Assembly: GCA_013306675.1 (NCBI GenBank)
Contig: JABLUY010000093.1
Coordinates: 1-64,000, forward strand
DNA from: Thraustochytrium sp. TN22
Lineage: Eukaryota > Sar > Bigyra > Thraustochytrida > Thraustochytriidae
Direction: 5' to 3'
DNA length: 64,000 bases
Shown: in pieces, positions 34,195-54,059 of the stretch
Layout of the letters: each line of letters begins with the position of its first letter
How positions within the stretch are numbered: position 1 is the stretch's first letter
Notes under the pieces: generated by a model
What the model saw: the letters and a program-made list of their open reading frames with translations, nothing else
What the model was told of the DNA's origin: nothing
The model's database searches: none
Translations under genes and position numbers: made by a program

Positions 34195-35370
34195 ATGGCA
34201 GCGAGAGAGCGCGGGCTGCTGGAGCCCGTGGTAATCGGCCAGGGTACGGAGCACGAGCTGCAGCTGCGCAACCGCGTCTTCCTGGCGCCGCTGACCCGCG
34301 CACGGAGCACGGACGACCATGTGCCGCAGACAGACATGATGGCAAGGTACTACGAGGCGCGGTCTGCGGCGGGGCTCATCATCTGCGAGGCGACCGGCAT
34401 CTCGCGCATCGGCATGGGCTGGTTCCAGGCGCCTGGCATTTACACGCCGGAGATGGTGCAGGAGTGGAAGAAGATCGTGGAGCGCATCCATGCCGCCGGC
34501 GGCAAGGCGTATCTGCAGCTGTGGCACATGGGCCGCCAGGGCCACTCGGATGTGCTCGGCTCTCCGCCCGTGAGCTCGAGCGCCGTGCCGCTGACGCAGC
34601 CCGTGACCGGGCGCAACCACGAAAAGAAGGACCCGGAGACGCCGCACGCGCTCACGCTGGACGAGATCGAGCAAACCGTGCAAGATTATGGCCGTGCCGC
34701 GCACAACGCCATGGCGGCCGGCTTCGACGGCGTGGAGGTTCACGCCGCCAACGGCTACCTCATTGACCAGTTCATGCAGGCCGTTTGCAACCAGCGCACG
34801 GACCGCTATGGAGGCTCCATTGACAATCGCCTGCGCTTCCTGCGCGAGGTTGTCGAGGAGGTCATGACCATCGTGCCCAAGGAGCGCGTCAGCGTGCGTC
34901 TGGCGCCCAACGGCTTCGTCGGCGACATGGGCAGCGCTGAGAACCTAGAGCTGTTCTCCGCGGCCGTGCGTCTGCTCGCCGGCCTGCGTGTCGGCATCAT
35001 CCACATCATGGATGGCCTGACCTTTGGCTTCCACGACAAGTGCGAGCCCTTCACCGCCGAGCACGCTCGCGCCATCATTCGCGACGTTCAGACCGCCCAG
35101 GGCATCGCAACCCTGCTCGTCTGCAACGTTGGCTACACGCGCGAGTCCGCCGACAAGCGCCTCGCTGAGGGCGCCAAGGAGGACCCCTTTGTGGACCAGG
35201 CCATCGCCTTTGGCCGTCCCTTCATTGCTAACCCGGACCTCGTGGCGCGATTCCAAAACAACTGGCCGCTCCACGCCGAGGCGCCCTACGACGACTGGTG
35301 GGCCAGCAACCTTGAGGAGGGCTACAACACTTACGAGGCCTACACGCCGGGCTCGCAGGCTGACCTCTGA
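34195..35370 (+). CDS. Old Yellow Enzyme family ene-reductase, copy 1
   Basis: A predicted protein of 391 residues, a FMN-dependent TIM-barrel oxidoreductase. Motifs in order: NRVFLAPLTRAR (FMN-binding Thr), LQLWHMGRQGHSD (Gln and active-site Trp), VEVHAANGYLIDQF (substrate His/Asn pair and proton-donor Tyr, matching His191/Asn194/Tyr196 of yeast OYE1), TDRYGGSIDNRLRF, VSVRLAPNG (FMN Arg) and IAFGRPFIANPDL (FMN phosphate). It reduces activated C=C bonds of enones with NAD(P)H. The ATG is at 34195-34197. It is the first of six paralogs and has a few private features, such as RARSTDDHVP where others have RGRATEEHVP. Confidence 0.93.
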   Translation: MAARERGLLEPVVIGQGTEHELQLRNRVFLAPLTRARSTDDHVPQTDMMARYYEARSAAGLIICEATGISRIGMGWFQAPGIYTPEMVQEWKKIVERIHAAGGKAYLQLWHMGRQGHSDVLGSPPVSSSAVPLTQPVTGRNHEKKDPETPHALTLDEIEQTVQDYGRAAHNAMAAGFDGVEVHAANGYLIDQFMQAVCNQRTDRYGGSIDNRLRFLREVVEEVMTIVPKERVSVRLAPNGFVGDMGSAENLELFSAAVRLLAGLRVGIIHIMDGLTFGFHDKCEPFTAEHARAIIRDVQTAQGIATLLVCNVGYTRESADKRLAEGAKEDPFVDQAIAFGRPFIANPDLVARFQNNWPLHAEAPYDDWWASNLEEGYNTYEAYTPGSQADL

Positions 35371-36008
35371 TGAGATTCTCATTCTGCTGGCTGCCGTGAC
35401 TCGACAGCCAATCTCCGAAGAAACTGTTCACTGTCTCAATTTTAAGATCTCTCTTCAAGTTCGTAGTAACATACGCCCCCGCGTCGCATCTTGCTGCCTG
35501 TTTGCCCGCCTCAGGCTGTTGAAGTTGGCCCGGGCGAACGTTCTGGTGGCTCGCGCGGCGGCGCGCGGCGGCGCACGCCGCCTCCAGGTCCCTCAGGTTC
35601 CTCTCCTCGTGATAGATGCTGATTGATGGCAGGGTGGGGGTACCACGGTTCCAGGGGTACTCGGACTTGTACCAACCATTGCACCAATTGCACCCACCAT
35701 TGTTTGCACCCAAGAGTGGGAGTACTAGGCCTACACAAGCTTACATCTTAGAGCCCCTGCGAGCCCCGACTCGAGCACCCAAACAGGGGACCCACTGGTT
35801 CCTTTTGTAAGGCTGCCAGTGCGGCCGGCAAGAACCGCGGTTGGCGTGTCACGTCCTGAGCCCGCCTTTCCGCCTCAGGCCAGGACCCTGGACGAGCAGA
35901 TCGCCAACGAGGACTTGGAGAAAGCGAGAAGGAACAGGATAGCTCGAGCGTGGACGTTCGCGACGACGCCGTAGCGGCCTTTGCGCCAGGCAGGTTGGAG
36001 GCAGGAGC
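35371..36008. other. Intergenic with an exon-like stretch
   Basis: Mostly without recognisable features. At 35879-35974 a frame reading ARTLDEQIANEDLEKARRNR and onward, ending at TAG, directly follows a pyrimidine-rich CTTTCCGCCTCAG that looks like a splice acceptor. No matching donor or upstream exon could be assigned. Confidence 0.35.
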
Positions 36009-37937
36009 ATGGGCGATGGCGATGCGACGGCTGGTGCTTCATCAGCAGCGGCCAACGTGCGCCAGGGGAAGCAAAATGTGCGCAGCGGGCACGGTGTGCA
36101 AAAGGGCGGCGTGCTGGGCGGCAGCTACGACTACATCGTCGTGGGCGCCGGGTCCGCTGGCTGCGTGGTGGCGTCGCGTCTCAGCGAGGACCCCAACGTG
36201 AGTGTGCTGCTGCTCGAAGCCGGCAAGAACAACCAAGAAATGATGGTGCGGCACCCAGCCGCCACCATGTTCGCGATGCAGAACACGGCGCGCGACTGGA
36301 AGTACAGGACGGTGCCGCAGACCGAGGGCCAGCACGGGCGTATAAGCATCCAGCCACGTGGCAAGATGCTCGGCGGCTGCTCCTCGCTGAACGGCTGCCT
36401 CTGGGTGCGCGGTGACCCACGCAACTTCGACCAGTGGGCAGAGAAGTTCGGCTGTGATAGCTGGAGCTATGCGGACGTCCTGCCGGCCTTCAAGAAGCAG
36501 GAAAGCTTCAAGTCAAGCGGGAAGATGCCGGAGGGGATCATCGACGCAGACTCGCACGGCTACGACGGGCCAGTCATCATCACGGACTTCACCGACCCCG
36601 AACCGAGGTCCGTGACGCGCGAGCTAGGCCTGCAGTTCGTCGAGGCCTGTGGAGAGGTCGGCCTCTTGCGACGCGACTACAACGGCCCGGTGCAGGAGGG
36701 CGTCGGCATGTTTCAGGCCAACGTGTACAAGGGCAAGCGCCAGGACACGGCGACGTGCTACCTGTTCGCCAACAAGGCCATCCAGAGACCCAATCTCACG
36801 GTGGTCACGCACGCGCACGTGCTCAAGGTCATCGTGCAGGATGGCCGTGCCACTGGCGTCCTCGTCAAGACGGGCAAGCACGACGCGGCCACCCTGCGCT
36901 CCGACAGGGTGCCCACGCAGTTCGTCGCGTGCACCAAGGAGGTGGTCCTTTCGGCCGGTGCCTTCAACACGCCGCAACTCCTCATGCTTAGCGGCATTGG
37001 GCCGCGCGAGGAGCTGGAAAAGCACGGCATCCCAGTTCTCGCGGACTTGCCCGTCGGGAAGAATCTCCAGGACCATGTAAGTAGCACTCCAAAGAGCGGC
37101 GCCGTGCTCGCAGGGGGGGGGGGGGACTTTGTCGACGATGCTAACGAATGCCGACGCGCGCAGCTCTCCTGTATCCTCGAGTATACAGTCAAAAAGGGCG
37201 TGTCTCACTTCTCCGGCACGCCAAGGCAAGGCGTGCTTGCACTCTTTGACTACTACGCACGCGGCATCGGACCTTTGACGATGACCTTTAGTCTGGCCAC
37301 AGCGTTTTGGTGCACCGGTGTGCGCCCCGCCCAGGATGGATGCGATGCCCAGAGCATGTTTATCCCCATGGGCCTTAATGTTCCCAGCATGCTGGAAAGC
37401 ATCGGCGTGGATCCCAAGTCGACGCGCTGGGCCGAGGCCTTCAAGACGCCGGAGCGCATAGGCTTCACGCCCACGCTCCTCCGCCCGTACAGCAGGGGCA
37501 CGGTCACGCTTGCGTCCGTTGACCCCTTCGTCGCACCCGTCCTCGATCATCGCTTCCTCTCCGACCCGCGCGACATTGACATTTTGAAGCGCGCCTACAG
37601 AAAGTGCATCGAGATCGCTGCCTCCAAGACCTACGCAGACTGCATCGGCCACCGCGTCATTGACCCCGACATCGACGCGGATCCCGACAGCGACGCGTAC
37701 ATTGAAGAGGAGATTCGTCGCAATGCGAGCACCACCTACCACCCAACGTCCACGGCGCGCATGGGCCGCCTTGACGACCCGGACGTCGTCGTCGATGCCC
37801 GCACGCTGAAAGTCAAGGGCTTCTCCAACCTGCGCGTCGCCGACGCCAGCGTCATGCCCGAGGTGGTCTCTGGCAACACCAATGCGGCCTGCATCATGAT
37901 CGGAGAGCGCTGCGCCGATTTCATCCTCGCTGCGTAG
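36009..37937 (+). CDS. GMC-family FAD oxidoreductase (probably spliced)
   Basis: The open frame codes 642 residues. An FAD-binding Rossmann motif, YIVVGAGSAGCVVASRLSE, lies near residue 41, then GKMLGGCSSLNGCLWVRG and LSAGAFNTPQLLMLSGIGP. The catalytic pair is in TTYHPTSTARMG (His578) and SGNTNAACI (Asn625). This is the choline dehydrogenase / alcohol oxidase type of glucose-methanol-choline enzyme; the substrate is unknown. A near-perfect 87-base intron lies in frame at 37077-37163: donor GTAAGT, branch TGCTAAC, acceptor GCGCAG. Removing it joins GKNLQDH to LSCILEYTVKKG and gives 613 residues, deleting an unusual glycine run coded by about 13 G. It sits between OYE copies 1 and 2 in the same direction. 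The ATG is at 36009. Confidence 0.9.
   Translation: MGDGDATAGASSAAANVRQGKQNVRSGHGVQKGGVLGGSYDYIVVGAGSAGCVVASRLSEDPNVSVLLLEAGKNNQEMMVRHPAATMFAMQNTARDWKYRTVPQTEGQHGRISIQPRGKMLGGCSSLNGCLWVRGDPRNFDQWAEKFGCDSWSYADVLPAFKKQESFKSSGKMPEGIIDADSHGYDGPVIITDFTDPEPRSVTRELGLQFVEACGEVGLLRRDYNGPVQEGVGMFQANVYKGKRQDTATCYLFANKAIQRPNLTVVTHAHVLKVIVQDGRATGVLVKTGKHDAATLRSDRVPTQFVACTKEVVLSAGAFNTPQLLMLSGIGPREELEKHGIPVLADLPVGKNLQDHVSSTPKSGAVLAGGGGDFVDDANECRRAQLSCILEYTVKKGVSHFSGTPRQGVLALFDYYARGIGPLTMTFSLATAFWCTGVRPAQDGCDAQSMFIPMGLNVPSMLESIGVDPKSTRWAEAFKTPERIGFTPTLLRPYSRGTVTLASVDPFVAPVLDHRFLSDPRDIDILKRAYRKCIEIAASKTYADCIGHRVIDPDIDADPDSDAYIEEEIRRNASTTYHPTSTARMGRLDDPDVVVDARTLKVKGFSNLRVADASVMPEVVSGNTNAACIMIGERCADFILAA
37077..37163 (+). 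other. Predicted in-frame intron of the GMC gene
   Basis: GT-AG intron of 87 bases (29 codons, phase 0, no stop). It begins GTAAGT, has GCTAAC 20 bases before the end, and ends GCGCAG. The same signal types occur in the eL22 introns. The joint falls right after the conserved NLQDH motif, where GMC proteins have no Gly-rich insert. Confidence 0.75.
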
Positions 37938-38338
37938 GACTACTTGCGAAGGGCGTTTCCGTGCCCAAGAAGGCAGCGCCCGAGACGCGCACCGCCACTG
38001 CGACTGCTCGCATGGTGCACCGGCGCTCGACGCGGGAGCGCAAGTCGTATGACTCATCTAGTACAGCGATTACAGCGACTGCGTCGCGGCGTCTAGGGAT
38101 CGCAGGCTCAGGCTCGGCTCGGGCTTAGTGCCCACGCGCTAGCTTTTTTAAAATTAATTAAGCTAGCTTTACGAGTAGCAAAGGAAGACTGAGCTGTCAT
38201 CTGTTCTGCATCTTTATCAACTGACCGGCTCGGACAGCCTCTCGGGCGAGCTGCACTTGACTCATCCAAAGACGAGGTCAAATGGCTCGGCCTTTCTCGT
38301 GGGCGTTATCGTCGCGCGGGACAAAGGAGTCGAAGGCC
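37938..38338. other. Intergenic, no supported gene
   Basis: The 3' flank of the GMC gene, with an AT-rich patch at 38140-38165. Nothing else was recognised. Confidence 0.5.
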
Positions 38339-38963
38339 CTACCCTCTCCAGCTTGCTGACCCGTTGTCGTCGACCATGGACATGTACGACAGCGCGAGTG
38401 GCGCCGACCTCAGGCCAAGGTCGATTACCCGATCGGCGTCGCTGCGGCCCGCACCGCCGCCGCACAGCCGCTCCGTCAGGTCCGTGATCTCGCTCACACA
38501 GGCCTTGACGTACTCGCCATCATCTCCAGCGTTTTGCACTCTAGCACCGCCGCGGTCTGCCGCCAGATCAGCTCGCGGAGATCGCGGACCAGTCGCTCGC
38601 GTGAGGCTGTGGTGCCTTGCAGTGCAGCACGTAGATGATCGAGCTACCTCCTCAGATCGAGCTCAGCATCATCGACGCCGCCTCGCTTGCACCGTTCTGC
38701 TCAGCTTTGCACTGCGCGATAAGCTTCTTTAGCCGCTTTATCTCCTTGCTCTCGGCGTTTATCCTCTCGAACAGAATCTGGCACGAGTCGTTGTCGGCAG
38801 CCATGATGTGCATGTCGATGCGGCACTGAGTCTCCATGCCCCCGCCCAGGACGATCTTCACGTTCTCGTTGAGCTGCCACGCCACGAAGTTGATGCCGTA
38901 CCGGGCCACGTTCTTCAGCACATCCAAGGCCCACGGCCGCCAATGTGTATCGGTTTGAATTGC
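38339..38963 (-). pseudogene. Decayed coiled-coil protein gene
   Basis: Three consecutive blocks on the minus strand look like one former protein but lie in different frames. The first (about 38963-38652) reads WALDVLKNVARYGINF, then INAESKEIKRLKKLIAQCK. The second (about 38635-38535) reads LDHLRAALQGTTASRERLV and RDLRELIWRQTAAVLE. The third (about 38540-38339) reads NAGDDGEYVKACVSEITDL, then LGLRSAPLALSYMSMVDDNG and a stop. A stop (near 38635) and frame changes separate them with no room for introns. The composition is charged and helical. The family is not recognised. Confidence 0.5.
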
Positions 38964-39229
38964 GGCCCTTGGTTGTAGGTGTAAGGGATCGTCCAGGCGA
39001 GAGCTGTGATCGTGCCGGACGGTGCGATCGAGCGCAGTAGCACAGTACGGCTGGGACTTTTTCTTGACTGCGAGGGAGTTGCGGCGAGTATTGCGCTCGG
39101 GCGCAGGATGAACTTGGCAGAGCGCTGGAAGTCCACCGCTGCGGTCATGCGGTTCGGCCCTGGCGTGGAAGGCGCTGCGCTGCGTGGCCTAGATGAGATA
39201 CTCAGCGGGGCGGGACGATGGCCCGAATG

Positions 39230-39372
39230 CAGGGCGACGTGCCGGTGATCTGTCTCTAAGAACACCAACGCAGCCTGCGTCGAAATCAGGGAGCATTGCG
39301 CCGCCGCCAACAGCATGGCACTGCCATCCTCCCGGACCCTTCTTCGACTTGATCCTCGCTTCCTCCGACTCG
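39230..39372 (+). pseudogene. GMC oxidoreductase C-terminal remnant
   Basis: At 39252-39310 the plus strand reads SKNTNAACVEIREHCAA, matching the SGNTNAACIMIGERCAD end of the intact GMC protein upstream. At 39344-39366 it reads FFDLILAS, matching that protein's DFILA end, after about 35 unmatched bases. The bases before 39252 align loosely with the DASVMPEVV region but in a shifted frame. It is a short, disrupted duplicate of the local GMC gene. Confidence 0.6.
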
Positions 39373-39975
39373 TGCATCTGTGACCTTCGTGATGTCGACC
39401 ATTCGCCACGTCGGGCATGCAGTAAGTTGCCAGTCATGAGACATACATGAATGCGGCCAGGCCCTGGACCAGTCAGTGGCAGCCAGTATCAACTTATCAA
39501 GCACAATTTTTTAATGGAGCGCGCAGGTTTGCGCCCGATTGCGCCCCGGGCTCGGCACGGTGACGAGACTGGTGCGTCCCATGTGAGGCGCAGGCCGCGC
39601 CAGCCGTCGCCACAGCCAGTGCCGCCAAGGCCGCACTGGCAGCATCAAGGACAGCGAAGCTGAAAGGCGCGCGTCGCCGCTGCCCAGCGGAGGGGCGCCG
39701 CGGGGCGCCGTGCCGCATCATCACCGCTCGGCGACCCCGTCCTGCGACCGCAAACTCCTCGCAGACTCGCAGAGAGTGCAGCTGACGGCGACTTGGCAGG
39801 CGAACGCACCGCAGTCCAACTGGGACGTTGCGTTCGTCAAAGCGTGCGACGGCTCCTTGCTTGAAGCCTAGCTAGCTCGCTGGCCGCGGCGCCAAGCTCC
39901 TGATGCCCCGAGCTGAGGCGGGCGGCGCGGCGCCGAGGCAGCAAATCAAGATCGTGGAGCTGCGCAGGAGACAAG
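39373..39975. other. Intergenic with another coding-like scrap
   Basis: At 39740-39870 the plus strand reads RKLLADSQRVQLTATWQANA and on to DVAFVKACDGSLLEA and a stop, which looks like the end of a former protein. No start, partner exon or family could be assigned. Confidence 0.3.
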
Positions 39976-41202
39976 ATGGGTGACATCACGCTGGACACGG
40001 AGCTGGCGATGAACATGACGGCCAAGGAGCCGGAGAAGCCGCTGTTCTCGCCGCTCAAGCTGGGCGAGGGCACGGAGCACGAGCTGCTGCTGACGAACCG
40101 CGTGTTCATGTCGCCCATGACGCGCGGGCGCGCGACGGAGGCACACGTGCCCACGGAGATCATGGGCGACTACTATGAGCAGCGGTCGAGCGCCGGCCTC
40201 ATCATCACCGAGGCGACCGGCATCTCGCAGGTGGGCCTCGGGTGGTTCTGCGCGCCTGGGATCTGGACGGAGGAGCAGACCGAGGCGTGGAAGCCCATCG
40301 TGAACAAGGCCAAGATTGCTGGCACGCGCTTCTTTCTGCAGCTGTGGCACATGGGTCGCCAGGGCCACTCGGACGTGATGAAGACCACGCCCGTGAGCGC
40401 GAGCGCCAAGCCGCTCACCGCGCCGATCACTGCGAGCAACCACGAGAAGAAGGACCCGGAGACGCCGCACGCACTCACCAAGGAGGAGATCGCCGCTACC
40501 GTGCAGGACTACGTCAAGGCGGCGCGCAACGCCAAGGAGGCCGGCTTCGATGGCATCGAGGTGCACGCCGGCAATGGCTACCTCCTTGACCAGTTCATGC
40601 AGAGCGTCACCAACGACCGCACAGACGAGTACGGCGGCTCCATCGAGAACCGTCTGCGCTTCCTCTTCGAGGTGGTCGACGCTGTCACCGAGGTCTTCCC
40701 CAAGGAGCGCGTTGGCGTGCGCCTCTCGCCCAACGGCAAGTTCGGCGAGATGGGCAGCGAGGACAACTTCGAGACCTTCTCGGAGGCCATCAAGGGCCTC
40801 GCGCAGCGCCGCGTCGCCTTCATCGACCTCATGGATGGTCTCGGCTTCGGCTTCCACGAGAAGTGCGAGCCGGTGACCGCCAAGCTGGCTCGCTCGATCA
40901 TCCGCGAGGCGCAGAAGGAGCAGGGTATCGCCACGCTGCTCGTGTGCAACGCTGGCTACTCGGAGCAGGACGCGCACGAGGTCATCGCCGTCGCTCAGGG
41001 TGAAGGCCCGTACGTGGACAACGCCGTCGCCTTCGGGCGGCCGTGGATCGCCAACCCGGACCTCGTCAAGCGCTTTCGCAACGGCTTGAAGCTCGCTCCT
41101 GAGGCGCCCTACGACACTTGGTGGGGCTCCAGCTCCAAGGAGGGCTACAGCGACTGGCCCACCTACAAGGAGGATGACGTCCCGCAGGATGCCGAGGAGT
41201 GA
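39976..41202 (+). CDS. Old Yellow Enzyme family ene-reductase, copy 2
   Basis: A predicted protein of 408 residues, the longest OYE copy because of an N-terminal lead (MGDITLDTELAMNMTAKEPE) and an acidic tail (EDDVPQDAEE). The motifs are intact: NRVFMSPMTRGRAT, FLQLWHMGRQGHSDVM, IEVHAGNGYLLDQF with the His/Asn pair and Tyr, TDEYGGSIENRLRF, VGVRLSPNG and AFGRPWIANPDLV. HAGN replaces the usual HAAN. It should bind FMN and reduce activated alkenes. The ATG is at 39976. A damaged duplicate of its C-terminal part follows at 41245-41456. Confidence 0.93.
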   Translation: MGDITLDTELAMNMTAKEPEKPLFSPLKLGEGTEHELLLTNRVFMSPMTRGRATEAHVPTEIMGDYYEQRSSAGLIITEATGISQVGLGWFCAPGIWTEEQTEAWKPIVNKAKIAGTRFFLQLWHMGRQGHSDVMKTTPVSASAKPLTAPITASNHEKKDPETPHALTKEEIAATVQDYVKAARNAKEAGFDGIEVHAGNGYLLDQFMQSVTNDRTDEYGGSIENRLRFLFEVVDAVTEVFPKERVGVRLSPNGKFGEMGSEDNFETFSEAIKGLAQRRVAFIDLMDGLGFGFHEKCEPVTAKLARSIIREAQKEQGIATLLVCNAGYSEQDAHEVIAVAQGEGPYVDNAVAFGRPWIANPDLVKRFRNGLKLAPEAPYDTWWGSSSKEGYSDWPTYKEDDVPQDAEE

Positions 41203-42147
41203 TTGATTTGAGGTTCTTGAAAGAAAAAGAAATGCATGCATGTGCACGCTCTCATTCGCGACGCGAGGCGCAAAAAGGACCGCGACCAGGGCATCGTGTG
41301 CCACGCTAGCTGCACGGAGCAGGACGCGCTTGACGTCAAGCTCAAGCGCGCTTGACGTCATCGCCTTTGCGAAGCGCGAGAGCTCAAGCGCGGACAACGC
41401 TGTGGCCTTTGGTCTACGCTTGCGCATCGGTCGGAAGCTCGCGTCTGAGGCCCCTCGCGAGTGCTTGCGCCGGGTGCAACGAGTCCAGCTCGATGGACAT
41501 CACTTCCTATTCCATCGGATCGTGCAGGTACTTGTCAACTTCAGCTCAGCGGCACACGTTCTGCGCCTGTGTCTGGTGCTGGTGGTCGCTCGCTGTCACC
41601 GGTCGACTCCCCCGAGGTGCGTGGTCGAGGTCCCAAGGACCACTCGCTCACGAGCGGATCTTCGGCCCCGCGTGCAAGTCGTCCCGGGCGTCCTGTCAGT
41701 GACGTTTCCGGCGCTCCGCACCTGCAGTGCCTGTCGGTCTGGTGCTAGGGTTGCACCGAGGCGACGTCATCCGACTCGAGGTTCACAGTCACAGTCCGAG
41801 AGATAGATCATCATGACGTGCCGAGCTTCGCCGCGTGGCTCGCTCGGGAGGTCCGAGTCCTCGCGCTCCTTGCTCGCCACGACGCGGGTGGTGAGTCAGG
41901 CCCGCCGCCGAACTTGACCTCCTGCCAGGGGTCTGCTGGACCTGGTTGTGACCCCGGCGCGGCGACTCGGCTGGTACGCGCGGAAAAGCCGAGGCGCAGG
42001 GCTTCGCGACGGCCGCGACCCCGCGCCGCCACAGGCCGCAGGCAGCAGAGTCGAAACGCAGACGCACCAGCCAGCGAGCGAGCGAGCGAGCGAGCGAGCG
42101 AGCAGGCGAGCGCAGGACTGTCAGGACCCGGCTCCACGGCAGGCGGG
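41203..42147. other. Intergenic holding an OYE remnant
   Basis: Apart from the pseudogene fragment at 41245-41456, no gene is supported. A (GCGA)n microsatellite lies at 42072-42103, about 45 bp before the next start codon. The frame of copy 3 is open through this part but has no family similarity there. Confidence 0.5.
41245..41456 (+). pseudogene. OYE C-terminal fragment, copy 2-like
   Basis: The bases align in order with the C-terminal third of OYE copy 2: ARS-x-SRREAQK against LARSIIREAQK, CGCGAGGCGCA shared exactly, TCGTGTGCCACGCTAGCTGC against TCGTGTGCAACGCTGGCTAC, GGAGCAGGACGCGC shared exactly, then GACAACGCTGTGGCCTT and GAAGCTCGCGTCTGAGGCCC. Several small insertions and deletions put the pieces in different frames. 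It is a partial tandem duplicate that has decayed. Confidence 0.8.
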
Positions 42148-43284
42148 ATGGAACTGGTGAAGGCGACGACGCTGGGCAAGGGCTCCGAGCACGAGCTGGA
42201 GGTGGCGAACCGCGTGTTCATGGCGCCGCTGACGCGCGGAAGGGCCACGGAGGAGCACGTGCCGACGGAGAAGATGGGCAAGTACTACGCGGACCGCGCC
42301 GGCGCCGGGCTCATCATCTCGGAGGCGACGGGGATCTCGCAGACCGGGCTGGGCTGGTTCCAGGCGCCCGGGATCTGGAGCGATGAGCAGGTGGAGGCGT
42401 GGAAGCCCGTCGTGGACAAGGTGCACGCGGAGGGCGGCCGCATCTTCGTGCAGCTCTGGCACATGGGCCGCCAAGGCCACTCGGACGTCATGAAGACCAC
42501 GCCCGTGGCGCCCAGCAACATCCCGCTGTCGTACCCGATCACGGCGCGCAACCACGAAAAGAAGGACCCCGAGCAGCTGCACGAGCTCACCGAGGAGGAG
42601 ATCGCCGCCACAGTCAAGGACTACGGCATTGCGGCGCGCAATGCCAAGGAGGCCGGCTTCGACGGCGTCGAGCTCCACGCCGCCAACGGCTACCTCATCG
42701 ACCTCTTTTTGCAGAGCGCCACCAACAAGCGCACCGACGGCTATGGCGGCTCCGTCGAGAAGCGCGTGCGCTTCCTCAGTGAGGTCGTCGAGGAGCTGCT
42801 CTCGGTGTGGCCCAAGGAGCGCATCGGCGTGCGCGTTTCGCCCAACGGCAAGTTCGCCGACATGGGCAGCGAGGACAACATCGAGACCTTTACGGCGGCC
42901 ATTAAGCTACTCGCTGGCGAGCGCCTTGCCTACATCCACCTCATGGACGGCCTCGGCTGGGGCTTCCATGAGAAGTGCGACCCCTTCACGGCCAAGATGG
43001 GCCGCGACCTCATTCGCGAGGTCCAGGCCGACGAGGGCGTTGCCACCGCGCTCGTGTGCAACGCCGGCTACACCAAGGAGGACGCCGAGGAACAGGTCCT
43101 CGATGCGCAGAAGGAGTCGCCCTACGTGGACCAGATCATCGCCTTCGGCCGCCTCTTTATCTCGAATCCCGACCTCGTCGCCCGCTTCGAGCACGACTGG
43201 GAGCTCGCCCCAATCGCACCCTACGAGGACTGGTGGGGTTCCGACTCCGAGGAGGGCTACAACTCGTTCCCGAAGCACGAGTGA
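42148..43284 (+). CDS. Old Yellow Enzyme family ene-reductase, copy 3
   Basis: A predicted protein of 378 residues. Intact motifs: NRVFMAPLTRGRATEEHVP, FVQLWHMGRQGHSDVM with Trp104, VELHAANGYLIDLF with His177, Asn180 and Tyr182, TDGYGGSVEKRVRF, IGVRVSPNG and AFGRLFISNPDLV. GRLF replaces the GRPF of the other copies. The C-terminus ends EEGYNSFPKHE. It starts at the ATG at 42148 (MELVKATTLGKG), which aligns with the starts of the other copies. Most similar by eye to copy 4. Confidence 0.93.
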   Translation: MELVKATTLGKGSEHELEVANRVFMAPLTRGRATEEHVPTEKMGKYYADRAGAGLIISEATGISQTGLGWFQAPGIWSDEQVEAWKPVVDKVHAEGGRIFVQLWHMGRQGHSDVMKTTPVAPSNIPLSYPITARNHEKKDPEQLHELTEEEIAATVKDYGIAARNAKEAGFDGVELHAANGYLIDLFLQSATNKRTDGYGGSVEKRVRFLSEVVEELLSVWPKERIGVRVSPNGKFADMGSEDNIETFTAAIKLLAGERLAYIHLMDGLGWGFHEKCDPFTAKMGRDLIREVQADEGVATALVCNAGYTKEDAEEQVLDAQKESPYVDQIIAFGRLFISNPDLVARFEHDWELAPIAPYEDWWGSDSEEGYNSFPKHE

Positions 43285-43732
43285 GAGAGGGCGGAGGTAG
43301 TCTGGCGAGTGAAGCCCTTTTTTGCGCGAGAAAGATGTGCCATGATAGATTAGAGATTGCATTTGATCGCCCAATCTTTAGCCTACTCCGCTCGGTTTCC
43401 TTGTGAATAAGTTTGCGCGCCAGCAGCGCTCAGGCGCGCCAGCTGCGCCTTCGCCAATGTCTGTCCGATGCTTCCAGCTCCCAGCCAGGCTTTGGGGAGG
43501 TCCCTTGCCGCGGCCGCCGCTGCCGCCGCCGCCGGCTTCTGCACCAGTCTCTCTGTCCGCTGCTGGCGCGTGCACGCTCGGCACGTGCACAGATCGAACT
43601 CTCACAGATCTACATTGCACTCGCCTCGGGTCGCCTTGCGCTCGCAGCGCAGCGCAGAGCAGCGCGCCGCAGCACATCGCAGCACATCGCGTCGCATCGC
43701 ACCGGATTGCCGAGGCGAGGCGCTCGACCGCC
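43285..43732. other. Intergenic, no supported gene
   Basis: The 3' flank of copy 3 and the 5' flank of copy 4. It includes a GCC/GCCGCC-rich patch near 43510-43535 and a GCAGCGCAGAGCAGCGC-like stretch near 43650-43675. Nothing else was recognised. Confidence 0.5.
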
Positions 43733-44887
43733 ATGGAGCTGCTGCAGGAGGCCGCGCTGGGCAAGGACTCGGCGCACGAGCTGGTGCTGCCCAATCGCGT
43801 GATGATGGCGCCCATGACGCGCGGACGCGCCACGGAAGAGCACGTGCCCACGGAGAAGATGGGGCAGTACTACGCGGACCGCGCTAGCGCCGGCCTCATC
43901 ATCGCAGAGGCGACAGGCATCTCACAGGCCGGCCTGGGCTGGTTCCGCGCGCCCGGGATCTGGAGTGAGGAGCAGGTCGAAGCGTGGAAACTCGTGGTGG
44001 ATGAGACGCATGCAGCGGGCGGCCGCATCTTCTTGCAGCTTTGGCACATGGGCCGCCAAGGGCATTCCGACGTCCTAAAGACCACGCCGGTCAGCGCAAG
44101 TGCCAAACCGCTTTCCTACCCCATCACGGCGCGCAACCACGAAAAGAAGGAGCCGGAGACGCCACACGCACTCACCATCGAGGAGATCGCTGCGACCGTC
44201 GCGGACTACGGCATCGCAGCGCGCAACGCCAAGAATGCCGGCTTTGACGGCGTCGAGATTCACGCCGCAAACGGCTACCTCATCGACCAGTTCGCGCAGA
44301 GCGCATCCAACGAGCGCACCGACGAGTACGGCGGCTCTATCGAAAACCGCCTGCGCTTCATGCGCGAGGTTGTGCAGGAGGTGCTCGCTGTCTGGCCCAA
44401 GGAGCGCGTCGGTGTGCGCGTCTCTCCCAATGGCAAGTTCGCCGACATGGGCGCCGAGGACAACGTGGAGACATTTTCCGAGGCCATCCGCTACCTCGCT
44501 GGCGAGGGCGTCGCCTTCGTCCATCTCATCGACGGCCTGTCCTGGGGCTTTCACAAAAAGTGCGACCCCTTCACCGCCGAAATGGCGCGCGCCATCATCC
44601 GTGAGGTCCAGGCAGACAGCAACGACGACAGCGTCGCCACCGACACCGCGCTCGTCTGCAATGCAGGCTACACGAGGGAGTCCGCTGAGGAGCAGATCCG
44701 CGCAGCACAGGAGGAGTCTCCCTATGTTGAGCAGTTCATCGCCTTCGGCCGTCCCTTCATGTCCAACCCCGACCTCGTTGAGCGCTTTGAGAACGACTGG
44801 GAGCTAGCCCCAGCTGCGCCATACAACGACTGGTATGGTACCGACACTGCGGAGGGTTACAACTCTTTTCCCAAGCACGAGTCTTAA
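43733..44887 (+). CDS. Old Yellow Enzyme family ene-reductase, copy 4
   Basis: A predicted protein of 384 residues. Intact motifs: NRVMMAPMTRGRATEEHVP, FLQLWHMGRQGHSDVL, VEIHAANGYLIDQF, TDEYGGSIENRLRF, VGVRVSPNG and AFGRPFMSNPDLV, ending EGYNSFPKHES. It has a short insert, QADSNDDSVATDTAL, between the last barrel strands compared with its sisters. The ATG at 43733 (MELLQEAALGKD) aligns with copy 3. The frame is open upstream to 43403, but that stretch is low-complexity. Confidence 0.93.
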   Translation: MELLQEAALGKDSAHELVLPNRVMMAPMTRGRATEEHVPTEKMGQYYADRASAGLIIAEATGISQAGLGWFRAPGIWSEEQVEAWKLVVDETHAAGGRIFLQLWHMGRQGHSDVLKTTPVSASAKPLSYPITARNHEKKEPETPHALTIEEIAATVADYGIAARNAKNAGFDGVEIHAANGYLIDQFAQSASNERTDEYGGSIENRLRFMREVVQEVLAVWPKERVGVRVSPNGKFADMGAEDNVETFSEAIRYLAGEGVAFVHLIDGLSWGFHKKCDPFTAEMARAIIREVQADSNDDSVATDTALVCNAGYTRESAEEQIRAAQEESPYVEQFIAFGRPFMSNPDLVERFENDWELAPAAPYNDWYGTDTAEGYNSFPKHES

Positions 44888-45694
44888 TTTGGCCTTGGCC
44901 AGCCCGAGAAAACGCCAGGGCCCTGGCTGCCCGTCACGTCGAGTAAAAGGTATGATGTTCTGGTCAGATCTGCAGCAGGGGGGCTACCATCTGCGCGACT
45001 TGTTCGTGGCCTTCTTGGGGACCGCCATTCACCCCGTTCGCCGCCTTGGCATCTTTCCGTGTCACATGTCATGGCCGACTTGGCCACGCACGGCGCTGTC
45101 GCGCAAGATGGTCCGGCGAAGCGGTGCCTCCGTCTTGAGGTCATCGCCAAACCTGAAGGCCTGCTGCGGCCATGACGAAAATCGCAGCCCATGACGCCGC
45201 GGCTGGCGGGTTTCCCAAGGAGCCCTCCCACACCATCGCCTTCCGAGTCGCGGCCACGGTCAACGCGACGCGGGCACTTCGTTCGGCCGACACTGGCATC
45301 GGGGCAAGTTGCCAGCATGCCCGAGTGCCCCGCCATTGAACACACTGCTCAAGCTGTGATGCTGCCCACTGGCAGGCACGCACGCAAGCAGGTGAGGCTG
45401 GGACGGCCCTGGCTGGCCGCCAGGGCCTCGTCCGACAGCAAGAGGTTCCAGCCGTCTATCCCTGGCACAATGCACGTGATAGTTGGGACATGTGAGGTTA
45501 CCCAGACTCGAAGCTTCACTCTTCGCTCGGGCTCGGGCTTTCGGGGGAGACCTCGGGTCCACGCGTCGGAAACGGGCGTGCCAAAGCCGAGCAGGCCGGG
45601 GTCGGGACCGCGTGGCCGCTTCAGTGGCAGACAGACCCCAATCTCTCCCGCGAAATTCGTAAGCAACAGCCCGACTTGAAGAGAGGCAAAGAGA
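44888..45694. other. Intergenic with a small coding-like frame
   Basis: A frame of 55 codons at 45172-45339 starts MTKIAAHDAAAGGFPKEPSH and continues AFRVAATVNATRALRSADTG with protein-like codon use, but no family is recognised. A GRPW word near 45400 faintly recalls the OYE phosphate-binding loop, too short to claim. Confidence 0.35.
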
Positions 45695-46867
45695 ATGGCA
45701 CAGAGGACGAGCCTTTTGTCGGAAGTGGTGCTCGGCCAGGGCAGCAAGCATGAGCTGAGATTGGCCAATAGGGTTGCCATGGCGCCCATGACGCGTGGCA
45801 GGGCCACCGAGGAGCATGTGCCTACGGATATGATGGGCCAGTACTACGCGGACCGCGCGAACGCTGGGCTCATCATCTCGGAGGGAACCGGCATCGAACA
45901 GGGCGGCCTTGGCTGGTTCCGGGCCCCCGGCATCTGGAGCGAGGAGCAGGTCGAGGCGTGGAAGCCCATCGTGAAGAAGACGCATGAGGCCGGCGGCGCC
46001 TTCTTCCTGCAGCTCTGGCATATGGGCCGCCAGGGCCACTCGGACGGCTTCAAGGCCCAACCCGTCGCGCCGAGTCCCATCCCGCTCAGCGGCCAGGTCA
46101 CAGCGACGCACGGCGAGAAGAAGGACGCCGAGACGCCGCACGAGCTGACCACGGACGAAATCGCCGGCATTGTCGAGGCTTACGGCACCGCGGCACGCAA
46201 CGCGATCGTCGCCGGCTTTGACGGCGTCGAGGTGCACGGCGCCAACGGCTACCTGATCGACGTCTTCATCCAGTCCAAGACCAACCAGCGCACGGACGCG
46301 TACGGAGGATCGATCGAGAACCGCCTCCGCTTCCTTCGCGAAGCCGTGGATGAGGTCCTCAAGAATGTACCCAAGGAGCGCGTCGGCGTGCGCCTTTCAC
46401 CAAATGGCACCTTTGGCGAGATGGGCAGTGAGGATAACGTCGAGACCTTTAGCGAGGCCATTAGGCTCCTCGCCGGCAAGCGCATTGGCTTCATCCACTT
46501 GATGGACGGCCTTGGCTTCGGTTTCCACGAGAAATGTGACCCTTTCACCGCCAAAATGGCTCGCGATCTTATCCGTGAGGTGCAGGCCGAGGCCAGCGTC
46601 GCCACCGCGCTCATCGCCAACGTTGGATACACGCAGGAAACCGCGGAGGACCAGATCCGCGATGCCGAGGCCGAGTCGCCCAAGGTCGAGCAGCTCGTCG
46701 CCTTCGGCAGGCCCTTTATCTCCAACCCGGACCTTGTCGACCGCTTTCGCCATGGCTGGGAGCTCTCCCCGGACGCAAGCCCTGCCACGTGGTGGACTCG
46801 GGGATCTGAGGGCGCGGAGGGTTACAACACCTTTCCGATGCATGACGACATTGACGAGAGCGAATAA
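45695..46867 (+). CDS. Old Yellow Enzyme family ene-reductase, copy 5
   Basis: A predicted protein of 390 residues. Intact motifs: NRVAMAPMTRGRATEEHVP, FLQLWHMGRQGHSDGF, VEVHGANGYLIDVF with the His/Asn pair and Tyr, TDAYGGSIENRLRF, VGVRLSPNG and AFGRPFISNPDLV. The substrate loop differs from the other copies: TATHGEKKDAETPHEL instead of TARNHEKKDPETPHAL. The end is also private (TWWTRGSEGAEGYNTF, acidic tail). The ATG is at 45695. Expected to bind FMN and reduce activated alkenes. Confidence 0.93.
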   Translation: MAQRTSLLSEVVLGQGSKHELRLANRVAMAPMTRGRATEEHVPTDMMGQYYADRANAGLIISEGTGIEQGGLGWFRAPGIWSEEQVEAWKPIVKKTHEAGGAFFLQLWHMGRQGHSDGFKAQPVAPSPIPLSGQVTATHGEKKDAETPHELTTDEIAGIVEAYGTAARNAIVAGFDGVEVHGANGYLIDVFIQSKTNQRTDAYGGSIENRLRFLREAVDEVLKNVPKERVGVRLSPNGTFGEMGSEDNVETFSEAIRLLAGKRIGFIHLMDGLGFGFHEKCDPFTAKMARDLIREVQAEASVATALIANVGYTQETAEDQIRDAEAESPKVEQLVAFGRPFISNPDLVDRFRHGWELSPDASPATWWTRGSEGAEGYNTFPMHDDIDESE

Positions 46868-47139
46868 ACGTAACAGAATGGCCACGAGATTCCTATCTTT
46901 CGGAAATCATGAATTTTTCATCATCACCCGCGCCGCGCCGCCGCCGCGCCGCCGCGCTCGGAGTCCGGGTCAGAGTCCGAGTCATCCGCGAAAAGCAAGC
47001 CATGAAGCTTGGAAGCTTCGCCAGGCTACCGGCCGCGGCCCCACTGTCACCACTCGCAGTCATGTGTCTTCACAGCAGCCAGGGCGGGCAGGCAGACTGC
47101 TAACTAAGCTTATTGCGAAGGCGCGAAGGTGCACGCACG

Positions 47140-48279
47140 ATGGCATCTTCAGGCTCCCCGAAGCTGCTCATGGAAGTTGAGCTCGGTCAGGGCTCGGAGC
47201 ATAAGCTCAAGCTAGCGAACCGGGTCGTCATGGCGCCCATGACACGGGGCAGGGCCGGCAAAGACCACGTGCCGTCCGACATCATGGCTAAATATTACGC
47301 AGATCGCGCCGGCGCCGGGCTCATCATTACAGAAGCCACCGGCATCGCGCAGAGCGGCCTGGGGTGGTTCCGTGCCCCCGGCATCTGGGACCAGCACCAG
47401 GTCGACGCGTGGCGGCTCGTGGTGGAGCGCACGCACCGAGCGGGCGCGCCCATCTATCTGCAAGTCTGCCACATGGGCCGCCAGGGCCATGCGGGCATTT
47501 TAAAGACCTCGCCGGTCGCGCCAACCTCCCTTCCGCTCGGCGACGAGACGGATGCGCCGCGGGAGCTCAAACTTGGCGAGATCCCTTCCATCGTCAAGGC
47601 CTTTGGTGCCGCGGCCCGCAACGCGCTGGCCGCGGGCTTCGACGGCGTCGAGATCAACGCCGCGAACGGCTTCCTCATCGACCAATTCACGCAGAGCACC
47701 TCCAACAAGCGCACGGACGCCTATGGCGGCTCCGTCGAGAAGCGCCTGCGCTTCCTTCGGGAGGTCGTCGAAGAGGTGCTCACCGTGGTTCCAAAGGAGC
47801 GCGTCGGTGTGCGCGTGTCGCCGAATGGTGTCCAAGGCGAGATGGGCAGCCAAGACAACGTGAAAACCTTTACGGAGGCGATCATGCTCCTCGCCAGCCT
47901 GCGCATTGGCTACATTCACCTCCTCGATGGCCTCGCCTGGGGCTTCCATGCCTTGTGTGAGCCGTTCACAGCCAAAATGGCTCGAGACCTCATCCGCAAG
48001 GTGCAGGCCACCCAGGGCATCGCCACAGTACTCGTGTGCAACGCGGGCTACACGCAGGTGTCCGCAGAGAACCAGATCGAGGCAGCCGCGTCGGAACATC
48101 CGCGTGTAGAACAGGTGATTGCCTTCGGGCGCCCCTTCCTCTCTAATCCAGACCTCGTGGACCGCTTTCGCAACGGTTGGGAGCTAGCACCCGTCCCGCA
48201 TCCTTCGGTGTGGACGGCCGCAAGTCGCGACAATCCTGAGCAGGGGTACAACAGCTTCCCCAAGGCGAGGCGAGCATGA
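47140..48279 (+). CDS. Old Yellow Enzyme homolog with altered active site, copy 6
   Basis: A predicted protein of 379 residues, clearly an OYE: NRVVMAPMTRGRAGKDHVP, TDAYGGSVEKRLRF, VGVRVSPNG and AFGRPFLSNPDLV are kept, so FMN binding is probable. Three active-site residues are changed. The Trp of LQLWHMGR is Cys110 (LQVCHMGR), the substrate-binding His is Asn173, and the proton-donor Tyr is Phe178 (INAANGFLIDQF). The loop between them is about ten residues shorter and lacks the NHEKKDPE segment. The frame is intact and the rest is conserved, so selection appears to maintain it. It may use other substrates, act without a Tyr proton donor, or be non-catalytic. The ATG is at 47140-47142 (MASSGSPKLL). 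Confidence 0.9.
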   Translation: MASSGSPKLLMEVELGQGSEHKLKLANRVVMAPMTRGRAGKDHVPSDIMAKYYADRAGAGLIITEATGIAQSGLGWFRAPGIWDQHQVDAWRLVVERTHRAGAPIYLQVCHMGRQGHAGILKTSPVAPTSLPLGDETDAPRELKLGEIPSIVKAFGAAARNALAAGFDGVEINAANGFLIDQFTQSTSNKRTDAYGGSVEKRLRFLREVVEEVLTVVPKERVGVRVSPNGVQGEMGSQDNVKTFTEAIMLLASLRIGYIHLLDGLAWGFHALCEPFTAKMARDLIRKVQATQGIATVLVCNAGYTQVSAENQIEAAASEHPRVEQVIAFGRPFLSNPDLVDRFRNGWELAPVPHPSVWTAASRDNPEQGYNSFPKARRA

Positions 48280-48525: not shown

Positions 48526-51500
48526 CTACATGTCGTCATCGTCGTCGTCGTCATCAAGGCGGCTGTGACCCGAGGCCTGGATATCTGCGGCGTTGCGAGC
48601 CACAGTGGTCTCGTCCATGTCGATGGCGATACAATGGGTTACGGCGTAGAGCAGCTTCTCGGCGCAGGTCTCCTTGCTAGTGTACATGGGTAAGTCGAGC
48701 GAGAAGAAGCAGGTGTGAGCGGTCGGGAGCATCTTGTCGGCGGTGAGGGGCCCGCGCACGGAGAGCTTGGAGATCTTGTGCTTGCGGTCCCAGTCCTGCG
48801 AGGACGAAGGCAAGCGAGAGCGGCCCCAGACAAAGCGCAGGTAGCGCTGGCGGTCCTCCTGCGAAAAGTCCTGGAGGACCTGCCAGAACAGCTGAATGGA
48901 TGGCGTAGTCTCGGTGATGCCATCACCGTAAATGGTGTTGGCCTTGAGGATGTCAATGTCGACCTCGGGAGGCCCGCACACCGTGAGCTCCAGCTCCTCC
49001 GCGGTGAAGATGCTCAGCAGGTTGCGCGGGACCTGCGTGGCCAGGCCACGCGCGATGGCTGCACAGGGCCGGTCCAGCTCGTGCAGGCGCGCGCGCAGGA
49101 GAGCGCGCACGTAGTCGTCGCGACGCTTGAGCGTGACGGGCGTTGCGTTGCCACCCGGTACAAGCTCCACGACGCGCCCGTCTGAGCCCTTCATGGTGAA
49201 CTTGAGGTCGAGTCGCGCCAGCTCCTCCTCGTCACGTACCGACGTCACGGCCTGGACCAGCTTGTAAAAGCCTAGATCGAAAGCGCGCACGTCCTCGAGC
49301 GACACATTGTCGCTGCAGAGCTGCTTCCACACGAACGAGGGCATGTCCAGCACGAAGGGGTTCTTGGTGCGCATCGCGATGCCCATGAGCTTGCCCACGA
49401 ACTCGAACATGCGGAGGCTGATGTGCGTCGTCGCCGAGGCTGCCGGGAGCCACTTGCCGCGACACTCGCCCGCATTTGCCACCTGGTTCGGGCATGGTAC
49501 GAAGAGCGGCAGCGCCGGCGTCAGCAGCTCCTGGCACGCCTGGTTGAAGACGTCGCGGTACGGCCCGCCGTAGTCGTCGGCGCGCTCGCCCGCCAGAATG
49601 GTGTACCAGGCGCGGTGCGAGTTGCGCAGCAGACTGGCGTCCTGTACCGCCGGCGTCGGCGCTAGCAGCGGGTTGCGCTCCGACTTCTCCTCCGACCCGT
49701 TGCCGTGCAGCTGCGAGAAGAGCTGCCCAAAGACCGTGCGCGTGCCCTTGAGGTCGACGCGCCCTGACTTGAGGAACTGCGCCGCCTTGTTACGGTCCAG
49801 CGTCACCGTCGGGACCTTGTTCTGCTGCATCCAGTGGTCGTCGCCCGAGTGCGAATCCGTCAGCACGCGCTCGAAGAGCGCCTTCTTCACCGAACTCATG
49901 ACCAGGCCGCGCACATTGCGGAGCGCCGCCGCCAGGGCGGACTCGTGTGTCGCACAGCTCAGATCGATAAGCGGCAACACGTGCGCCAGCCGCCGGTTGA
50001 AGTTGCGCAGCACCAAGAAGCGCAGCTGCAGCGTTAGCAGGGGCACGTCTTCGAGCAGCTTGTAGTGCATGAGCTCGTCCTGCGTCGGCTCGAGGTCATT
50101 CGGCGACAGCGTGAGCGGGTCCTCGCCCCGCTTCGAGCACACCGTGTTCACGAGCCGCACCAGCTCGCAATCGTGCTCAAGCGTCAGCGGCGCGAACATG
50201 CGGTGGAAGAGCTCCAGCCGCGCCCGGTTGCGCGGCTCCTCCGCGATGCGCTTCGTCGTCTTGCGCGAGTACAGCGGCGAGATGGTCATCCGGTAGCCCC
50301 ACTCCTTGGTGGTCGGCGACCGCTTTCGTTCCCGCTCCCGCTCGCCGTGCGCGCGCCGCGACGAGGATGAGGACGAGGACGAGGACGAGGACGAGGACTG
50401 CGCGTGTGTCCCAGACCCGCCTGCGCCGGGTCCGGACGACGACGCTCCGTCCTGCTGCCCAGTCCCGCCCGCACTGCCCGCCGCGTCATCGTCGACGCCA
50501 GCCGACGAGATCGTGTACTCTCGCTGGATGATGCGGTTCGAGGCCGACGTCTGCTGCAGCGCTGCAACCGCGGCGGCGGCCGTGGCGGACGCGCCATCCT
50601 CGTCGCCGTCCATAAAGCCCTCCGCCTCATCCACCTGGTCCAGGTCCAGCCGCGCGTTCACGTGGTGCAACCAGCCCTCCTCCTCCGCGAGGACCTCCTC
50701 GGCCGCCTCGGCAGCGCGCCGCTCGGCATCCTGCTTGCTCTCCTCCGCCATGCGGTCTGAGTGCGTAATGAGGTACTCCGCAGCGCGGTTCAGGTCCTGG
50801 TTTGACGCGTTTAGCGCCTGCACGCACCATTCCACCGGGTACCCGAGGGCGGAGAGCACCTGCGCCATTTCATTCAGCTGCGACGAAGAAGATGAGCCGC
50901 CGCCAGCGCCTGTGCTGGCCGCAGTTGCGCTTGACCTGCTGCCATGGCCGTCCGTCAAGTCGACGATTTCCTCGACCTCGCCGAGCTCCTCGCCTTCGTT
51001 CGTGCTGCTGTAGTGGCTGCTCAGAGAGGTCATCCTATTGGCAGTTGTCGTCGACGTCGTCGTCGTTGTTGTGGTCGCCGTTGCGCCGCCTTCTCGGCCT
51101 TCGCCACTCCCATCCTGGTCCACCTCGGAAAGCAGGCCGCCTGCGCTCGTCGAGGAGGTCTCCTGGTCCGCATCGGACCACCGCCGCCGCCGCGAGCTGC
51201 GATGCCGCACGAGCGAAACGCGCGACGGGACGCCACCCACCCCGGTAGACATTGCGCTGCCACCCGAGGAGGATGCGCCCGTCCGCGTGCGCGAAGAACC
51301 GCGCCGCGAACGGCGCGACGAGGATGAAGACGAAGACCCCCCACCGCCGTTGCCGCCGTTGCCGCCGCTGCTACTGCTGCCGTTGTTGGTGGTGGTGCGC
51401 GAAGCGATGCGTGCCGTGGCATGCTGCTGCTCGAAGCTGCTGCGCAGCTGGTGCAAAATGGTGGCAGTCTCGTGGTCCATGGGCGTGGAACCAGACAACA

Positions 51501-52901
51501 GGGTGATCTGGTCATCCTTGTTGTAGAACGAAAACGTGGGCACCAGTTCGTTGCCTGGCTGGAGAATCGTGGACGGCAGGGGCAGCCGGTTGAAGGCCAC
51601 GCCCCAGTCCTCGCCGTTCACCGCCAAGGACATGCAGCGCCGCGGGATGTCCACTGTCACGCGAACAACATCGTTCGCCTTGAGCCGCTTGCCAAAGCGA
51701 TGGCGCACCTTGCGGCCGCCGTGCCAGCACGCCATGCAGCCGATCCAGCCCCACCCCTTGTCGTCGCTGCCCAGGTAGTTGGTGACCTTCGCCGACTTCA
51801 TGGCCACCCCGAAGAAGATGTTGGCCGAAGGGCCCGTGCGGTCCACACGCACCTCCCAGCTGTTCACGCCCGACGAGAAGCCCGTCGTGGTGAAGACCGT
51901 CTGCCAGGTCTTGTCTTTCCGTAGTGTTGCCGTCAGGCCACCGTTCGTGATGCGAATCTCCGGCGCCTTGTAGTCCGCTGTCTTGTAAAAGGCCCAGTCC
52001 ATGCGCTGCGGAACGGGGAACTCGTAGTGCATCGTGCACGAAGGCACGTGCACGGAGCTCGACCCAAAGTTGCCCTGCAACGCCTCCACGTGAAGGTTGC
52101 GCCGCACCTGGCGGTTCGGCAGCCGCGCGTCGCACGTCAGCACAAGCGTCTTGCCAAAGGCAGTCGCGCAACGGCGATCAAAGCGCACGACGAGCGCCTC
52201 GGCTCCCGGCAGCGTCACCTCGCCCTTGATTCGTTTCGACGAGAACGGGTGCGTGCTCTCCACCATGGCCGTGTTACTCGAGAGCACCAGCTTCAGAAAG
52301 GTGTCCTCGGCCATCAGGAACTCGCTCGGCAGGCGCACGCGGTCGCGGTGCACGAGCGCCTCCATGATGGCAGCCAGCTCCGACAGCTGCTGGAACCAGT
52401 TCTCCTGACTCGTCAGCGGATCATCCTCGGCGTCATCCTGCTGCCCTGCCGCCCGCGCACCCTTCTTGGCGGCGACGTCCGCCCCGCGCGCCGCCTCGGC
52501 ATCCTCCGCGTCTCGCGCCGCGGCCGACTTGGCCACGCTGCTGTCCCGCAGAAAGGTCACGCGAAGCGGGCGCTCCGTCTTGATCATTGACCACATCTTG
52601 TGCCGGTCGTATTCCGAGATGCGTCGGTCCCTGAGCTCCCAGAAGATGTCCCCGGGCTCTACACCAAAGTCCGCCGCAGCGCCGTTCTCCTTGACGTGGT
52701 GCACGAGCAAGATGTCCTTGTTGGACAGAATTTCGATGCCCAGGGAGCCGTCAAACTCCACCGTGAAAAACTTCGGCTTGGTCTCGCCGCTCCGTGCAGC
52801 GACCTCGCCGGCCGCCGCCGCTCCGCCCTCGTCATCGCCCCCCTCCGCGTCGGACTCGTGACCGGCCCCGGGCCGTGCCTCCACGGCCGGATTGCCTTCC
52901 G

Positions 52902-52934
<33 letters not shown>

Positions 52935-54028
52935 TGGTCGCCTTCGTGCCAGCACCCGGCTCGTCCGAAGAGGCGGCGGCCGCCGCAGCCGCCGCGGCGC
53001 TCTCCATCACGTCCAGAGAGTCGTTCCTGCGCTGCGTCAGACTCACCGAGACAAAGACCTCGGCAAGCGCGCACAACAGGCTTGAAAAGAGCGGCATCTC
53101 GTCCATGATACCGTCCTTGGGCTTTTGCGCCTGTCTCTTGTACAGCGACTCCATCTGCACGCGCAGCTCCAGCAGCTCGGTGCCGAGCTTGCCGCGCAGC
53201 GAGTCCGCCGGTGTCCGGCGGATCACCATCGCCAGCATGCGGATCGCCTTGATGCGCACTGTCGGCGTGGCCGTCCGGCTGAAGCGCAGCAGCGCGTGGA
53301 CGAGCTGCGGACTGAAGACGCGCCGCGACCAAGGACCCATGCCGTTCTTCTCGTTCGAGTCGAATTCTGACAGCAGCTGCAGGATCCAGAGCAGCAGCTC
53401 CGACGACCCGTGGTTCGAGTTTGTTGTGGAGGCCAGGCCAAGGTGGTATGGCCGCAGATCCTCCTCCATCTTCACGGTCTGCGAGGGCTTGTGCGCCGAC
53501 GCAGCCGCAGCCGCGGCCGTCGTGGGCGCCGTCGCAGGCGCTAGTGCGCCAGCGGCACCGCCCACGCCAGCCGTCGCATGCGAGGCCATATTGGCCACAG
53601 AAAACTTGGTCGTAAGCTCCAGCCCGTGCAGCATGTGGCTCTTGGTCTCCTCCTCCGTCGAGCTCTTCTTGGATTCCATGCACAGGCGCGCCTCGATCGT
53701 CGCCGCGTCCACGCGAGAGAGCGACATGAGCTTATTTTTCTCCCGCGCGCGCTCGCGGCTCGCCGCCACCGCCGCCGCGCCCGTGACAGGCGCCTCGGCA
53801 CCGCCCGACCCGTCCAAGCGGGCCGCCGCCCCGAGCCGCAGGCCCGACAAGGGCTGGTCCTCCTTGGCCAGCACCGGCACAAAGGTGCGCGAGCTGTTGT
53901 CGATCTCCCAGATCGACACGCCCACCGCACGGGCGCGAGCTGAGCTCGCGCCCGCGCGGCTCCCGCGCCCGAGCACATCGTCAGCAGCGGGGCTGTGGCC
54001 GCTGGTTCCTCCTCCTCCTCCTCCTCCT

Positions 54029-54059
<31 letters not shown>

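Follow-up and report, generated by a model that had tools for sequence, protein, structure and literature searches.

The locus and its genes

The window, meaning the whole 64,000-nucleotide stretch of DNA analyzed here, carries six old yellow enzyme (OYE) genes, O1 to O6, between 34195 and 48279 (Table 1). Consistent with the original prediction of six full-length paralogs on one strand, each can be read directly as a single intact open frame, and all six lie on the forward strand. The GMC flavoenzyme gene expected between copies 1 and 2 is likewise in place, on the same strand between O1 and O2. In a Pfam scan, for which longer, upstream-extended frames of O3, O4, and O6 were used, 6/6 proteins matched PF00724 (Old Yellow Enzyme) with E values of 4.8e-65 to 4.4e-78 and passed the gathering cutoff of 27 bits at 220 to 263 bits. 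The start of O3 was taken as the ATG preceding the conserved domain; the in-frame upstream extensions of O3 and O4 are dissimilar by eye.

Table 1. Positions of the array genes, the relics among them, and the kinesin gene
Feature	Position	Strand	Description
Kinesin gene	20806-22914	-	
O1	34195-35370	+	OYE ene-reductase, 391 aa, canonical His/Asn/Tyr site
GMC flavoenzyme	36009-37937	+	642 aa, choline-dehydrogenase-like
Possible GMC C-terminus relic	39252-39302	+	17 residues, E 0.003, weak
O2	39976-41202	+	OYE ene-reductase, 408 aa, canonical site
Degraded relic of O2 C terminus	41227-41467	+	two frames
O3	42148-43284	+	OYE ene-reductase, 378 aa, canonical site
O4	43733-44887	+	OYE ene-reductase, 384 aa, canonical site, O3 sister
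Relic matching 52461-52583 of giant downstream gene	45010-45138	+	98/130 columns identical
O5	45695-46867	+	OYE ene-reductase, 390 aa, canonical site, O6 sister
O6	47140-48279	+	noncanonical OYE, 379 aa; Cys110, Asn173, Phe178; 10-residue lid-loop gap

HxxNxY is the catalytic motif of class I ene-reductases, and it is present in all five of O1 to O5, as expected for that class. The best-scoring solved structures for O2 were bacterial ene-reductases; for O3 and O6, the two proteins scanned against NCBIfam, the NemA subfamily model was the top match, with scores under its cutoff. With the full ene-reductase active site retained, O1 to O5 probably reduce activated alkenes such as enones, enals, maleimides, and nitro compounds with FMN and NAD(P)H, each copy having its own range. 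In fold and length, the array proteins resemble the bacterial class I OYEs (N-ethylmaleimide reductase, PETN reductase, NCR, GluER, and CtOYE), which have HxxNxY in common with the five copies. Unlike in those systems, six copies stand in tandem in a eukaryote, and O6 differs at the His, Tyr, and Trp.

Fragments of both enzyme families had also been predicted within the array, and here the OYE part stands while the GMC part is doubtful. The relic between O2 and O3 is a broken O2 C terminus (tblastn E of 5.6e-7), with a core at 41294-41329 in which 32 of 36 bases are identical to O2 (E of 1e-6). We call the GMC-like piece weak because it is so short and was found in a search of intergenic DNA only; it was absent from the whole-window search at an E of 0.05. 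A third relic, between O4 and O5 and absent from the original prediction, aligns with part of the giant downstream gene in DNA (E of 5e-10, and 4e-8 in a second DNA comparison). As protein, it matched that gene over only 14 residues (E of 5.7), and no protein match between the giant gene and the array was better than an E of 0.74. Repeated unequal exchange around the array could have left such relics behind. The giant gene itself (48526-63966, reverse strand) is a single frame of 5146 aa, in which RCC1-like repeats and a HECT-like C terminus can be made out by eye.

Origin and age of the six copies

Relatives for a tree came from a search of genome contigs, which found 161, of which 80 loci were kept. 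With 82 bacterial proteins of at least 320 aa (one locus, L070, matched in part and yielded no protein) and the six array proteins, the tree had 88 rows. All six array proteins group in a single clade (100/100 support) against the bacterial OYEs, a test set of bacteria only, such that those of other eukaryotes might branch within the six. Since they stand in one clade against 82 bacterial OYEs, we attribute the array to local tandem duplication, as had been proposed. Within the clade, O5 pairs with O6 (99/94) and O3 with O4 (99/92); O1 joins O3 and O4 with weak support (92/52), and O2 is outermost with the bacteria as the outgroup. The long branches are those of O1 and O6, the latter 0.68 compared to 0.25 for O5. 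O3, O5, and O6 are 40-53% identical to the bacterial relatives with which they were compared. No relative was found in viral contigs, either with O3 as the query (0/4 candidate stretches) or with an alignment of the six proteins (0/12).

The further claim that this expansion was recent did not hold. Protein identity among the six is 53-76%, and fourfold-degenerate sites are 48-68% identical in 15/15 pairs, compared to 40% from composition alone; these low values imply that the duplications are not recent. In 40-codon windows along three of the 15 pairs, none came near identity, and identity in O2-O4 and O5-O6 fell toward the C terminus. The array sits among eukaryotic neighbors, including kinesin, eIF3e, UVSSA, and a DIP2-like AMP-binding protein, at a GC content of 58-74% in 2-kb windows; from these genes in single open frames and the GC content, we infer an intron-poor eukaryote, conceivably a thraustochytrid-like stramenopile. 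We propose that, in such a GC-rich, intron-poor microbial eukaryote, an ancestral class I OYE gene, similar to NemA or PETN reductase, underwent several tandem duplications, none of them recent.

Rows of OYE genes are known elsewhere. In the portions of PMC2784038 available to us, two triplets are described in Pichia stipitis and five genes in Debaryomyces hansenii, and the cluster of Pichia guilliermondii is flanked by putative alcohol dehydrogenase genes; plant OPR genes also occur in tandem clusters, according to a part of PMC2688005. These clusters share local duplication with the array, and that of P. guilliermondii has adjoining alcohol oxidoreductases. The array differs in its six copies, in the GMC gene that it encloses, and in a member lacking the Tyr, which the same portions do not mention for the yeast and plant clusters. 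Because tandem OYEs are in print for yeasts and plants, we regard the array as of a known kind, with O6 making it a variant; O6 is its notable feature. In a literature search whose scope took in few of the subscription journals, no paper paired old yellow enzyme with a thraustochytrid, none combined old yellow enzyme, GMC oxidoreductase, and gene cluster, and no title among the matches listed named a protist OYE array. The term OYE is absent from the main text of PMC5635513.

O6, a copy with an altered active site

The active-site loops had been noted to differ between copies, and they do, above all in O6. This protein reads NAANGF at HxxNxY, outside the class I motif, and has undergone three replacements (His to Asn, Tyr to Phe, and Trp to Cys) together with the loss of ten lid residues. 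It is the sole copy to replace His177, Tyr182, and Trp104 (O3 numbering), which lie in columns at least 90% conserved in the 82 bacterial rows (His in 82/82, Tyr in 82/82, and Trp in 80/82) and which we take to be H191, Y196, and W116 of OYE1. The ten-residue deletion sits between Trp104 and His177. On this mapping, Phe178 of O6 occupies the Tyr196 position of OYE1, the residue change characteristic of psiOYEs and the EasA isomerase.

A broader bacterial sample gave the same picture. Two more searches, with O6 as the query, took in 294 and 299 genomes from two phyla and had a match in 217 and 218, respectively. In the widened set, 145 of 146 loci yielded 144 distinct OYE-like frames, of which two were short of these columns and 142 were scored. 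In this set, biased toward near relatives of the queries and drawn from the best matches listed, His was found in all 142, Tyr in 141 (Met in 1), and Trp in 133 (Met in 5, Ala in 3, Val in 1); Asn at the His site or Phe at the Tyr site occurred in 0/142. O6 is not the only copy with unusual residues in conserved columns. At O3 position 93, Lys in O2 stands against His in 82/82 bacterial rows, and all six have Gly at 110, where bacteria have Ser (78/82), and Glu at 323, where bacteria have Asp (82/82). For that reason, such replacements are not in themselves proof of a new function.

Could O6 simply be decaying into a pseudogene? Its long branch and lost catalytic residues would fit, and the decayed fragments nearby indicate that genes do die in this array. 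We consider this very improbable, however, given an intact 379-codon frame, an in-frame loop deletion, a high-confidence predicted fold, and the selection acting on the gene. In a branch codon model (GY-type, F3x4) run on 367 gapless codons with the topology of the 88-row tree, omega was 0.053 on O6 compared to 0.077 for the background, a difference that is not significant (2dlnL of 1.14), while omega = 1 on O6 was rejected (2dlnL of 58.2), values that rest on a single tree, on synonymous sites that have diverged, and on a model without variation among sites. The O6 branch is under purifying selection. With O2 or O5 as the foreground, nothing significant was seen (2dlnL of 2.1 and 0.3); with O1, the branch length ran to its bound (t of 20), leaving a nominal 2dlnL of 9.7 uninformative.

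AlphaFold2 models of O6 and O5 had a pLDDT of 90.7 and 90.0, respectively. A short strand pair in the lid of the O5 model (135-136 and 142-143) is missing from that of O6. When the O6 model was compared to the PDB with Foldseek, all of the 50 matches listed, of 407, were OYE-family structures (E of at most 0.001). Among them were the laboratory mutants H181N (3p74), Y186F (2abb), and W102F (1vyp) of PETNR and Y187F of NemA (8bpq).

These mutants bear on a second possibility, that every copy, O6 included, is an ordinary detoxifying ene-reductase and that their roles overlap; the changes in O6 would then only tune its substrate range, and the proton would come from solvent. Morphinone reductase works without this Tyr. 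Because of that enzyme, and because the Tyr-to-Phe mutants of PETNR and NemA fold and crystallize (as PETNR H181N also folds), O6 may still be a plain reductase; its predicted fold is consistent with this, as are the Thr, Gln, Asn, and Arg retained at other flavin-site positions, and the OYE proliferation in P. stipitis was read, in the part of PMC2784038 available, as filling new metabolic niches. We think it somewhat unlikely. Three conserved active-site residues and the lid are altered together and in one copy only, and for Y196F in OYE1 an excerpt of PMC13107220 reports a canonical reaction slower by six orders of magnitude.

The reading that we favor, with moderate confidence, is an old tandem array of class I OYEs in which O6 is noncanonical, likely starting hydride chemistry without completing the usual reduction. 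We take O6 to be a noncanonical OYE, probably outside the fungi. Having kept the fold and those flavin-site residues and lost the presumed proton-donating Tyr, substrate-binding His, pocket Trp, and part of the lid, it would most likely begin the reaction and leave it unfinished, much like the EasA isomerase and other fungal psiOYEs. In the portion of PMC4303823 available, EasA with Tyr as the proton donor carries out reduction and with Phe isomerization, and a Phe codon changed to Tyr in one fungal EasA allele gives a reducing enzyme. Redox-neutral substrate isomerization is possible for OYEs (PMC3533789, in part), and Aspergillus psiOYEs were mined as Y196F OYEs, each beside an NRPS (PMC13107220, in part). 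By analogy, then, the role of O6 may be nonreductive.

The likeness to EasA and to psiOYEs such as SubF, as far as the excerpts describe them, lies in a natural Tyr-to-Phe change at the proton-donor position. O6 adds His to Asn and Trp to Cys, positions compared on the O6 side only. Unlike the fungal psiOYEs, it sits in a tandem OYE array, without an NRPS neighbor among the frames scanned: none was recognized by Pfam in 24 window frames, a set that left out the giant gene, at which the window ends. The sole adenylate-forming protein among the 24 is the DIP2-like one (5287-10881, reverse strand; 1865 aa), which has AMP-binding and DIP2-like domains and, below the cutoff, a weak match to a hexapeptide repeat.

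A bolder and distinctly tentative extension would make O6 a naturally evolved nonreductive OYE outside fungi. With an Asn/Phe/Cys site and an open lid, it would isomerize a substrate or form carbon-carbon bonds through a hydride transfer cut short, and its canonical sisters would feed the pathway. The array is in any case an old tandem duplication with an internal control, five canonical copies beside one that lost the site and is still selected, and the sister pair O5 and O6 offers a natural test of an ene-reductase turning into something else. The natural Tyr-to-Phe OYEs in the parts of the cited papers available are all from clusters in fungi; another lineage would broaden the search.

The GMC gene and other neighbors

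Both the N- and C-terminal GMC domains are present in the flavoenzyme (PF00732 at 1e-45 and PF05199 at 1.5e-34), along with the motifs GAGSAG from residue 46, TYHPTSTARMG from 576, and SGNTNAAC from 621; we take the His and Asn of the latter two to be catalytic. Among solved structures, it scored best against a chloramphenicol-inactivating oxidoreductase, choline oxidases, and alcohol oxidases, and its best NCBIfam model is choline dehydrogenase (NF002550), at 413 bits, under the cutoff of 605.

The adjacency of this gene and the OYEs on one strand is what suggests a shared pathway, in which the OYEs would reduce an enone or enal that the GMC enzyme makes by oxidizing an allylic alcohol, perhaps in oxylipin or xenobiotic metabolism. 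The alcohol dehydrogenase genes beside the P. guilliermondii cluster lend such a module some plausibility, as far as the portion of PMC2784038 cited above goes. We nevertheless regard it as unlikely. The choline dehydrogenase model, itself below cutoff, does not point to an alkenol substrate, and GMC homologues were found in 0/146 bacterial OYE loci, many of them short (just 45 of the first 80 reached at least 7 kb). Nor do the upstream regions share a motif other than CG-rich repeats. In the 300-bp regions upstream of the seven genes, k-mer counts compared to shuffles gave no clear common motif: 12 7-mers occurred in at least four of the seven regions, compared to 9.1 in shuffles, with 4 and 0.6 for 8-mers and 1 and 0.04 for 9-mers. 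The excess 8- and 9-mers, considered as a shared promoter element, proved to be CG-rich repeats (CCG and CGCGGCCG types) and were therefore taken as low complexity and not as a regulatory site.

Several other features of the window deserve mention. A metallo-beta-lactamase-fold hydrolase (PF00753; 30526-31665, reverse strand), whose nearest NCBIfam model is hydroxyacylglutathione hydrolase, under its cutoff, is a detoxification-type neighbor of the array. Two neighboring frames on the reverse strand, at 1048-2448 and 3577-4806, have weak TMEM151-like matches below the Pfam cutoff and are about 71% identical in DNA over 735 columns. Just past the 3′ end of the kinesin gene, at 20026-20752, lies a tandem repeat with a 143-bp unit in 4.9 copies (92% matches).
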